A stretch of DNA of 64,000 bases from Holdemania sp. Marseille-P2844 (GTDB taxonomy: Bacteria > Bacillota_I > Bacilli_A > Erysipelotrichales > Erysipelotrichaceae): NCBI RefSeq assembly GCF_900120005.1, contig NZ_LT635448.1, forward strand, positions 310,001-374,000, given 5' to 3'. The notes under the pieces were generated by a model. It was not told the origin of the DNA. It saw only the letters and a list, made by a program, of their open reading frames with translations, and made no database searches. Shown one piece after another: positions 5,374-8,408 of this stretch. Position 1 is the first letter of the stretch. Each line of letters opens with the position of its first letter. Position numbers and translations under genes: made by a program.

Positions 5374-6312
5374 ATGGAGAGTTTAATTTTGTCCCTCAAC
5401 GTCGTGCTGCCGTTGTTATTTCTGATCTTGGTGGGGCAGGGTGTGCGGCGGTTGAAATTGTGCGATGAACGGACGTTAAAACAAATGAATCAGCTGGTTT
5501 TTAAATTATTTCTGCCCTGTACCTTGTTTAATAATATCTTATCGACAGATTTGAAAACGGTGCTGCAGCCGCAGTTATTGATGTATGCGGCGGTCTGCGT
5601 CTTGATCGCCTGCGGTGCGGGCTGGCTGGTCATGCCGCGGATTACAGCCGATCCGCGCAAACAGGGCGTCATGATCATGAATACGTACCGGAGTAATGCC
5701 GTGTTGTTCGGCATGCCGATCGTGCAGCTGATCTATGGGGATTCGCAGTTAGGCGTCATGTCGATGTTGATCGCAGTGATTGTCCCTTTATTTAATATTC
5801 TGTCAGTGATTGTATTGGAATCCTTCCGTGGGGGGAAAGCGCGCTTATCCAGACTGGTTGGAGGGATTGTGACCAATCCGCTGATCATCGCGTCAGCGCT
5901 GGGGTTACTTTGCTTGTTTTCCGGGGTTCATCTGTGGAAGCCGATCGCGTCGGTGATCGGTGATATGGGCAAGGTATCCACGCCGCTGGCGTTGATTATT
6001 CTGGGAGCGGGCTTCCAGCCGGAACACGTCGCTGACAATCAGAAAGAACTGATCGCCTCGGTTTCCGCCCGGCTGATCTGGACGCCGCTGGCGGCGCTGG
6101 GCTGCGCGGTGCTGCTGGGGATTCGCGGAGTGGCGTTAGTCAGTCTGCTGGCGATTTTTGCCTCGCCCAATGCGGTGTCTTCCTATTCGATGGCCGAAGG
6201 AATGGGCAGCGACAGCGAACTGGCGAGTCAGGGCTTATTGTTAAGTACCGTGTTCTGCATCCCGACGATCTTTCTGTGGATTTTCTGTTTCAGTCAGTGC
6301 GGCTGGATTTAA
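5374..6312 (+). CDS. AEC-family (auxin efflux carrier-like) transporter
   Basis: A 312-residue membrane protein with about ten hydrophobic segments in two halves, fitting bacterial AEC permeases (about 310 residues). Typical features are the N-terminal V-V-L-P-L-L-F-L-I-L-V-G segment and a family-like R-S-N-A-V-L-F-G-M-P near residue 110. Bacterial members carry malate, other organic anions or small metabolites; the substrate here cannot be read from sequence. ATG 5374 was chosen over 5335 because the promoter -10 box overlaps the earlier start region. It is transcribed alone, divergent from the XRE regulator. Confidence 0.8.
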   Translation: MESLILSLNVVLPLLFLILVGQGVRRLKLCDERTLKQMNQLVFKLFLPCTLFNNILSTDLKTVLQPQLLMYAAVCVLIACGAGWLVMPRITADPRKQGVMIMNTYRSNAVLFGMPIVQLIYGDSQLGVMSMLIAVIVPLFNILSVIVLESFRGGKARLSRLVGGIVTNPLIIASALGLLCLFSGVHLWKPIASVIGDMGKVSTPLALIILGAGFQPEHVADNQKELIASVSARLIWTPLAALGCAVLLGIRGVALVSLLAIFASPNAVSSYSMAEGMGSDSELASQGLLLSTVFCIPTIFLWIFCFSQCGWI

Positions 6313-6918
6313 CGCGGGGAGGGAACCATTATGCGTATTTGTTTTCAGACCGATCCCCGGTTTTGTCCGGATCTTCAGCTTGAGCATCAGCGGGTGCTTG
6401 CCACAGTCCCGGCTGCCGCTTGGAAGCTAAGATTGTGGGGACTCCCCTTTAACTCTCAGGAAAGCAAATTAAAAATATTGTCCGCAGCTTTAAGACTCTT
6501 ATTCAGTGTCTGGGGCTGGCTTGGCATTTTTATACAAAGAAGCAGGCGGTATAAAGTGTTATGGAAAGAAATGATACCTCCCAGAGTGATTTGGTTATTT
6601 ACCTTGTCTGCTTAAGAGGGTTCATATCAGAAAGCTTTGTACTCCCTGCCTTTTTATCTTGACTGAGTTTGGAAAAGAAGCGGGTTCAGAGTGGTTCAGT
6701 CTATGCTCCAAATTTTATGGAGCAGGCTGTCTTCGCATCGGATGTCAGATATGCCCCTGTGACAGCGGGGGAAAACCCGATTCTCCGCGTCCTCCACTGC
6801 CGTTAAGCTTGTTTTTGTCGTTTTATCCCCTTACCGATCAGTTTATTGACAAAAAAGGTGGAAAAGAAAAAATCATCCGTGTTTCGGAATCCTTTTTCAC
6901 ATTCTTATTCAGGAAACG
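6313..6918. other. Long gap without a convincing gene
   Basis: About 600 bases. A 94-codon frame at 6331-6615 has a plausible GGGAGGG site 7 bases before its ATG, and an 87-codon frame runs 6659-6922, but neither product resembles anything I know. They may be a decayed gene or chance. Confidence 0.4.
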
Positions 6919-6948
6919 TTGACATAAAGCGCGGAGTTCGACTATAAT
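6919..6948 (+). promoter_or_regulatory. Promoter of the attenuated MATE gene
   Basis: TTGACA (6919-6924), 18-bp spacer, TATAAT (6943-6948). Transcription would begin near 6955, leaving a leader of about 100 bases before the MATE start codon. Confidence 0.8.
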
Positions 6949-6977
6949 GACACTGTTCATCGGAGGGGAAATCACAA

Positions 6978-6995
6978 ATGTGGTTTGCTGGATAA
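6978..6995 (+). CDS. Leader peptide MWFAG upstream of MATE exporter
   Basis: A five-codon open frame, ATG-TGG-TTT-GCT-GGA-TAA, preceded by a strong Shine-Dalgarno GGAGGGG (6962-6968) 9 bases upstream. The Gly codon and stop lie inside the 5' arm of the terminator that follows. A small hairpin (AAATCAC/GTGGTTT, 6969-6986) places the ATG in its loop. By analogy with known short upstream ORFs of antibiotic-resistance genes, a ribosome stalled here would block the terminator and let transcription continue into the exporter. The function is inference; the arrangement is seen directly. Confidence 0.6.
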   Translation: MWFAG

Positions 6996-7032
6996 GATGG
7001 CTGACTGAAACGTCAGTGTCTTATCCTTTTTT
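6990..7032 (+). terminator. Leader terminator (attenuator) of MATE gene
   Basis: GGATAAGA (6990-6997) pairs perfectly with TCTTATCC (7019-7026), with an inner CTGAC/GTCAG stem, then six T. It lies between promoter and start codon, so it must be bypassed for expression. Confidence 0.85.
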
Positions 7033-7052
7033 GATTGATGGGAGGTTTTAGG

Positions 7053-8408
7053 ATGAGAGCAGAATTTACGAGCGGCAAAATTTTAGCGCCGTTGATGAAA
7101 TTTACCGTACCGATCATGATCGCGCTGATCCTGCAGGCGCTCTATGGCGCGGTCGACTTGTTAGTCGTCGGCCAGTTCGCTTCGCCGGAGGCGGTCTCGG
7201 CCGTCGCGACAGGCAGTCAGGTCATGCACTCGATGATGGTGATCATCACCGGACTGGCAATGGGCATCACCGTGCTGATCGGTCAGCAGTTCGGCCGGGG
7301 TGAACCGGAAAAAGTAGGGCAGACAGTGGAAAGCGGCGTCTTTCTGTTCGGCTGTCTGGCGATCATCCTGACCGCTGTCATGTTGGCCGCGACGCCGGTA
7401 TTGGTTACGTTAATGCAGGCGCCGGCTGAAGCGGTCGCGTTTACGAATCAATATGTTCTGATCTGTTCCGGAGGAATTCTGTTTATTGCCGCCTACAATA
7501 CGCTGGGCAGTATCTTCCGCGGTTTGGGCGATGCACGCACGCCGTTGTTAGCGGTGGCGATTGCCTGTGCTGCGAATATCGTGCTCGATCTGTTGTTCGT
7601 CGCGGGCTTTAAAATGGGAGCGGCCGGTGCGGCGCTGGCAACGGTGATGGCACAGGCGGCCAGTGTGGTTTTGTCGCTCGCTGTGGTTGCACGTCAGGGT
7701 CTGCCGTTTCCGTTTTCATGGCGGCGGATCCGGTTTCATGGAGAAACTGTTAAAGAAATCGTCAAGCTGGGCGCACCGGTCGCGCTGCAGGATCTGTTAG
7801 TCAGCATTTCTTTTTTGGCGATCACGGCGATTGTGAATCAGCTGGGCGTCATTGCTTCGGCCGGGGTCGGCGTCGCGGAGAAGGTCTGCACATTTATCCT
7901 GTTGGTGCCTTCGGCTTATGCGCAATCCATTTCCGCTTATGTCGCGCAGAACATCGGCGCGAACCAGCCGCAGCGGGCAAAACGGGGAATGGTTTACGGA
8001 ATCGCTACTTCATTGTTATTCGGTGTCTTCATGAGTTATTTTGCGTTTTTCCACGGCAATCTGCTTTCCGGATTATTTGCCCGTGATCCGCAGGTTATTC
8101 TGGCGGCTGCGGATTATTTAAAAGCCTATGCGATCGACACGCTGCTGGTGTCGTTTATGTTCTGCTTCGTCGGTTATTTCAACGGCTGCGGCAAGACGAC
8201 CTTCGTCATGTTTCAGGGATTGATCGGCGCGTTCTGCGTGCGAATTCCCGTTTCCTATCTGGCAAGTAAACTGGTTCCGGTCACCTTGTTCAAGATCGGT
8301 CTGGCCACGCCGTGTTCCACCTTTGTTCAGATCATCCTGTGCGTCCTTTATTTTCTCTGGCTGGGGCGGAAAGAAAAAATGAGTTTGAAACAAGCGGAAG
8401 TCAGATAA
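7053..8408 (+). CDS. MATE-family efflux transporter
   Basis: A 451-residue protein with about twelve hydrophobic segments in two homologous halves, the standard MATE size. The N-terminal segment I-L-A-P-L-M-K-F-T-V-P-I and the Y-G-A-V-D-L-L-V-V-G-Q motif are typical of the DinF/NorM-like Firmicute branch. These antiporters export cationic drugs and metabolites using sodium or proton gradients. Start ATG 7053 follows GGAGG at 7041-7045. The leader with a stop-overlapped terminator suggests induction by a ribosome-affecting compound, making drug efflux the likeliest role. A hairpin terminator follows. Confidence 0.9.
   Translation: MRAEFTSGKILAPLMKFTVPIMIALILQALYGAVDLLVVGQFASPEAVSAVATGSQVMHSMMVIITGLAMGITVLIGQQFGRGEPEKVGQTVESGVFLFGCLAIILTAVMLAATPVLVTLMQAPAEAVAFTNQYVLICSGGILFIAAYNTLGSIFRGLGDARTPLLAVAIACAANIVLDLLFVAGFKMGAAGAALATVMAQAASVVLSLAVVARQGLPFPFSWRRIRFHGETVKEIVKLGAPVALQDLLVSISFLAITAIVNQLGVIASAGVGVAEKVCTFILLVPSAYAQSISAYVAQNIGANQPQRAKRGMVYGIATSLLFGVFMSYFAFFHGNLLSGLFARDPQVILAAADYLKAYAIDTLLVSFMFCFVGYFNGCGKTTFVMFQGLIGAFCVRIPVSYLASKLVPVTLFKIGLATPCSTFVQIILCVLYFLWLGRKEKMSLKQAEVR

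Follow-up and report, generated by a model that had tools for sequence, protein, structure and literature searches.

A conserved candidate RNA switch, absent from the RNA family library searched, upstream of drug exporter genes in Holdemania and other Bacillota

The leader of a MATE exporter gene in the gut bacterium Holdemania sp. Marseille-P2844 does not encode a meaningful short peptide but is one copy of a conserved structured RNA, which precedes several unrelated kinds of drug-resistance genes and probably turns them on when an unidentified compound appears. We examined a window of 64,000 nucleotides (positions 310,001 to 374,000 of contig NZ_LT635448.1, assembly GCF_900120005.1; all features below are on its forward strand), in which a preliminary description had proposed a ribosome-sensing attenuator built from a Shine-Dalgarno (SD) sequence, a five-codon leader peptide (MWFAG) and a terminator. 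The elements that it listed are indeed present. The SD-like GGAGGGG lies at 6962-6968, followed by ATG (6978-6980), TGG, TTT, GCT, GGA and the stop TAA (6993-6995), with the ATG at the loop of a hairpin formed by 6969-6975 and 6980-6986. The intrinsic terminator (6990-7032) consists of a lower stem (6990-6997/7019-7026), an upper stem (7000-7005/7012-7017) and a T6 tract (7027-7032). A sigma-70 promoter matching the consensus at 12 of 12 positions (TTGACA 6919-6924, an 18-nt spacer and TATAAT 6943-6948), conserved in H. filiformis and H. massiliensis, lies just upstream, and transcription is therefore inferred to start near 6955. The downstream gene (7053-8408, 451 aa, starting with ATG and preceded by the SD GGGAGG at 7040-7045) is a MATE exporter (TIGR00797, 232.3 bits against a cut-off of 147.4). 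A hairpin as stable as this one ahead of a T-run arose in 0 of 300 mononucleotide shuffles of 6949-7052, although a simple terminator scan returned 0 terminators in 6300-7200, probably because the stem is interrupted by an internal loop.

The proposed interpretation is only partly supported: a conditional terminator does appear to precede the MATE exporter and the small hairpin matters, whereas the leader peptide is not supported by comparison. Of 4 genomes of the genus, the present one included, 3 hold this MATE gene, and in the two other species, H. filiformis and H. massiliensis, the leader is conserved almost base for base except where the ORF starts. The window's CACAAATGTGG reads CACAAAGGTGATTT in H. 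filiformis and CACATTCGGGTGATTT in H. massiliensis, such that the ATG and the frame (6978-6995) are gone while the flanking stem AAATCAC/GTGATTT is kept. The fourth genome lacks this MATE gene but carries the RNA before another MATE type (locus L122 of genome G003; loci and genomes are hereafter denoted by L and G numbers, G000 being the home genome). Over 72 collected copies of the RNA, an ATG located 4-13 nt after CGGAGG and followed by a stop occurs in 9, whereas shuffling of the loop gives 11.9 on average and 86% of shuffles reach 9; the ORF is thus not beyond chance, and the encoded peptides share nothing. Lack of conservation of the leader peptide in relatives, which had been named beforehand as an outcome that would refute the proposal, is what was observed.

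What is conserved is an RNA, and its conservation extends far beyond the genus. Of 17 loci with more distant homologues of this MATE whose upstream regions were read (L034-L050), 4 carry the same string, CGGAGG, a variable hairpin, GCYGGAUAAG, a hairpin and a U-run: L035, L042 (Orenia), L043 and L049, with best-segment identities of 53-58%. A pattern search found it in 7 of 295 genomes of the home phylum, all in the home order, against one hit of the reversed control pattern. A covariance model, R1, built from 13 copies, found matches at E 0.01 or better in 66 of 315 genomes of the Erysipelotrichales, 57 of them at 40 bits or more, although several of these are training copies and three of the 57 (G556, G358 and G305) lack a MATE gene by tblastn. 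More rarely, R1 matched other Bacillota in searches of groups defined by member genomes, which overlap: 15 of 341 genomes in the class of G301 (E 1e-4; L181-L183 not confirmed), 4 of 119 in the phylum of G299 (two of the four look false), 22 of 250 in the class of G945 (L235 not confirmed, L227 degenerate), 10 of 61 in the order of G1237 (E 1e-3; L242 and L245 false, L238 not confirmed) and 3 of 398 in the phylum of G945, two of them false. Plasmids hold no match to the window stretches tried. In viral contigs, a looser pattern mostly hit unrelated sequence (39 of its 80 loci were rescanned with R1), with one true-looking copy before a MATE-like frame in L284. This copy follows what looks like a Bacteroidota promoter (TAACTTTG), and the range of the element may therefore be wider.

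Weak R1 matches under about 40 bits that look like generic terminators (G000:C16:213231, G479, G105, G316, G563, G519 and G495) were rejected as copies, although some true copies also score under 40 bits (L164 of G526 and L234 of G1237, both tandem). In the home genome R1 finds one strong copy and one weak, probably false one. The latter belongs to a 97-base terminator-like stretch (G000:C16:213231-213327, L163), which looks identical in genomes of different groups (also L160 and L245) and in G986 (L245) lies near a recombinase-like frame, perhaps reflecting a shared integrative element. Before counting, 8 of 70 loci were dropped (L147, L150, L152, L160, L163, L165, L166 and L167), of which L147, L150 and L152, all over 40 bits, may be decayed copies without a MATE gene; one row with the same key as another and three of 14 further rows (one overlapping artefact and two duplicates) were likewise dropped. 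L172 and L176 were missed by the regular expression used for collection and are not among the 72 copies, which were gathered before the search of the class of G945, such that copies of this class are not in the covariation counts.

The conserved RNA is a hairpin composed of a helix P0, a core internal loop (CGGAGG/GCYGGAUAAG) and the helices P1 and P2. In the window, the P0 5' strand (U-CAUC, 6957-6961) pairs with the P0 3' strand (GAUG-G, 6996-7000), the first core strand (CGGAGG, 6961-6966) overlaps the SD of the preliminary description, the P1/P2 hairpin (6966-6989) has a variable loop that contains the accidental ATG, and the second core strand (GCTGGATAAG, 6987-6996) overlaps the 5' arm of the terminator (6990-6997). 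Anchoring the copies on the two core strands shows that the bases before CGGAGG pair with those after GGAUAAG (CAU/AUG, UGC/GCA, CAC/GUG, GGU/ACU, UAC/GUA, GCC/GGC, UCU/AGA, CGC/GCG and others), either directly or with one bulged base whose identity then varies. P0 alone forms 3 or more contiguous pairs in 52 of 72 copies, against a shuffle mean of 21.2 and a maximum of 32 in 2000 shuffles, with at least 11 different pairings, whereas the remaining 20 copies fail this strict test. Inside lie P1 (GGY/RCY) and, after a small purine internal loop, P2 with compensatory change, the P1/P2 loops varying freely in length and sequence. In 35 copies chosen for the bulged P0 register, 93.9% of cells are paired, against 23-49% when the structure is slid by 1-3 columns, 9 of 14 pairs show changes on both sides, and 0 of 500 shuffles reach any of five measures; compensatory changes support P0, P1 and P2. 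In agreement with these results, 62 matches (61 distinct), including more divergent copies, give 92.9% and 11 of 14 pairs, although this alignment is fitted to the structure. The core loop, GGA on one side and GGAUAA on the other, hardly varies in the 72 copies, which is partly built in, as copies were collected by near-matches to it. Additionally, in L102, L136 and most copies with the bulged P0 register, the P2 hairpins share an apical UUCA...GAAA motif absent from the Holdemania and short forms, possibly reflecting an extra tertiary contact or a second subtype. An alternative small hairpin between the 5' flank and the bases just after CGGAGG was rejected as the main structure, since it pairs in 41 of 72 copies at 3 or more pairs against a shuffle mean of 33.6, much weaker than P0; at 4 or more pairs it also exceeds shuffles (34 of 72, mean 21.8), and it may form transiently.

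GGAUAAG belongs both to this hairpin and to the 5' arm of the terminator. Folding the window's leader RNA at growing lengths gives the hairpin from 46 to 66 nt and the terminator from 70 nt on (-20.7 against -28.1 kcal/mol); by sequence overlap and predicted folding, the two structures are mutually exclusive. As the finished terminator fold is 7.4 kcal/mol more stable, it is inferred that something must hold the hairpin for the gene to be read, which is the usual design of an ON switch. Tandem copies (L156, L164, L184, L226, L228, L231, L234, L236, L241, L243 and L244) show the hairpin as an independent unit: although a second copy, in several cases with a variant core, stands between the first copy and the terminator, the first keeps its core, mostly GGAUAAG (as in L164, L184, L234, L241, L243 and L244).

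Of 95 downstream frames (the longest frame starting within about 560 bases), 77 match MatE, 8 MFS_1, 1 the SMR family and 1 ABC_tran, whereas 8 match none of these. At 40% identity the MATE frames form two large groups (46 and 26) and several small ones, and the MFS frames form groups of 5 and 4. NCBIfam models identify two members of the first MFS group as Bcr/CflA above cut-off (205.3 and 206.8 against 200.9), the SMR as Qac-like below cut-off (its frame looks shifted near the end) and the ABC protein as a ribosomal-protection-like ABC-F above cut-off (428.9 against 380); the last is preceded by tandem copies in L234 (G1237:C6:62450-66105). Further tandem copies before the second MFS group came from the order of G1237. 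Loci such as L130 and L172 have only MATE fragments by tblastn, and L233 (G1178:C17:107759-114176) holds two copies about 2.3 kb apart (cores at 1014 and 3338), the first before a MATE that looks frameshifted and the second before what looks like a deleted MATE start followed by a symporter-like frame. In L106 (1242-1339, minus strand), a SAM riboswitch match lies close by on the other strand.

No Rfam 15 family reached its gathering cut-off over the element, whether in the whole window, in 6850-7100 searched to E 10 (best ncr1241, 20.3 bits against 60), in 8 loci of which L030, L032, L035, L042 and L043 carry the element, or in 12 further element loci. Guanidine-I was found beside SMR genes as a working control in the class of G301, whereas an SMR search of the home phylum, meant to provide a guanidine-IV control, gave 0 of 61 genomes and a search of plasmids with E. 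coli EmrE gave nothing of use, such that these results do not bear on guanidine-IV or Gd4v, whose presence in Rfam 15 was not established. The motif was likewise not found in print in literature searches confined to the text of openly licensed papers, without consensus drawings or supplements; passages of PMC11611296, PMC12186494, PMC2965389 and PMC2864571 were among those consulted, and term searches of PMC11109978, PMC6429828, PMC8632094, PMC13273304 and PMC12452182 gave no hit.

Taken together, we are nearly certain that this is a conserved cis-regulatory RNA and consider it probable, although clearly less certain, that it is an antiterminator of the riboswitch type that switches the MATE gene on. 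In this view, the nascent leader first folds into the hairpin; if nothing stabilizes it, the 3' arm (UCUUAUCC), made a few bases later, takes GGAUAAGA away from the core, the terminator forms and transcription stops near 7032. A compound bound in the core loop, presumably one that the exporter removes, would hold the aptamer together and let RNA polymerase read into the MATE gene. Sequence comparison and folding establish the hairpin, its covariation, its overlap with the terminator, its association with resistance genes and its tandem copies, whereas the binding of a ligand, the ON direction and sensing by the RNA alone are inferences made without binding or expression data. The preliminary description also suggested induction by translation inhibitors; that one copy precedes a ribosomal-protection-like ABC-F gene keeps open that the ligand is an antibiotic, by a different mechanism.

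Among alternatives, an RNA-binding protein could be the effector, holding the hairpin and blocking the terminator as LicT/SacY proteins do at RAT hairpins. The anatomy, a hairpin with an asymmetric internal loop overlapping the 5' arm of the terminator, is the same, and there is mostly one copy per genome. However, no regulator gene stood out beside the copies whose flanks were read, in an unsystematic inspection of only about 1.5-3 kb, and unrelated target families and tandem aptamers are inferred to be more usual for riboswitches; we therefore regard this possibility as unlikely.

Membership in the guanidine-IV (GGAM-1, mepA motif) or Gd4v riboswitches is very unlikely, although these are the nearest published neighbors by target genes and by use of a terminator. 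Guanidine-IV is a 5' leader ON switch with an intrinsic terminator and with MATE and SMR exporters among its targets (PMC7736828), and Gd4v, its orphan variant of unknown ligand, is common in gut bacteria and can also precede MATE genes (PMC9788692). Both are described as two hairpins joined by a pseudoknot, with the terminator stem as part of the structure, whereas here a single nested hairpin competes with the terminator. Guanidine-IV most commonly precedes sugE, while the only SMR among our 95 frames scores higher with Qac models than with SugE. Gd4v precedes a transaminase in over 50% of cases, and also GNAT genes, yet neither family appears among the Pfam matches of the 95 frames. The conserved guanidine-IV loop bases (G62, G66, U67, A71 and G72 in Lactococcus construct numbering) correspond to a spacing, G-N3-GU-N3-AG, inferred only from the text on mutants, which occurs in 1 of 72 copies. 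As these comparisons rest on published text rather than on the drawn consensus or models, a distant kinship is not excluded. The yjdF riboswitch, which senses diverse azaaromatic compounds, perhaps for detoxification (PMC4793209), likely follows a similar biological logic, but it controls yjdF and has another structure. It is an Rfam family, whereas no Rfam family matched the present element.

The ribosome-sensing MWFAG peptide is very unlikely: short upstream ORFs do control resistance genes through premature terminators, and an SD-like GGAGG, a complete ORF and one relative before an ABC-F gene would fit, but the comparisons above already contradict it. A plain terminator or constitutive attenuator without sensing, despite the predicted stability of the terminator, is the least likely, as conserved unpaired core bases, covariation of a structure that competes with the terminator and tandem first copies with GGAUAAG are not expected from it.

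About as likely as not, the element represents a distinct riboswitch class dedicated to drug defense, in which one compact aptamer, used singly or in tandem, would sense a toxic, perhaps antibiotic or aromatic, compound and switch on MATE, Bcr/CflA and another group of MFS, and Qac-like SMR exporters and a ribosomal-protection-like ABC-F in gut Bacillota and probably beyond. As a lead only, the core CGGAGG/YGGAUAAG resembles the internal loop of the laboratory-selected FMN aptamer (AGAAGG/AGGAUAU), the letters of which were not found in the literature searched, and flavins or flat aromatic cations may thus be the first ligands to consider. Few RNA sensors are known to be tied to multidrug resistance genes rather than to metabolism, and the ligand can be sought with a simple reporter. 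The home genome, of 3.7 Mb, holds 29 MATE-like genes, only one of them with the RNA switch, and a widespread RNA that marks which exporters in gut bacteria answer to the same signal would give a direct handle on what those "multidrug" pumps are really for.
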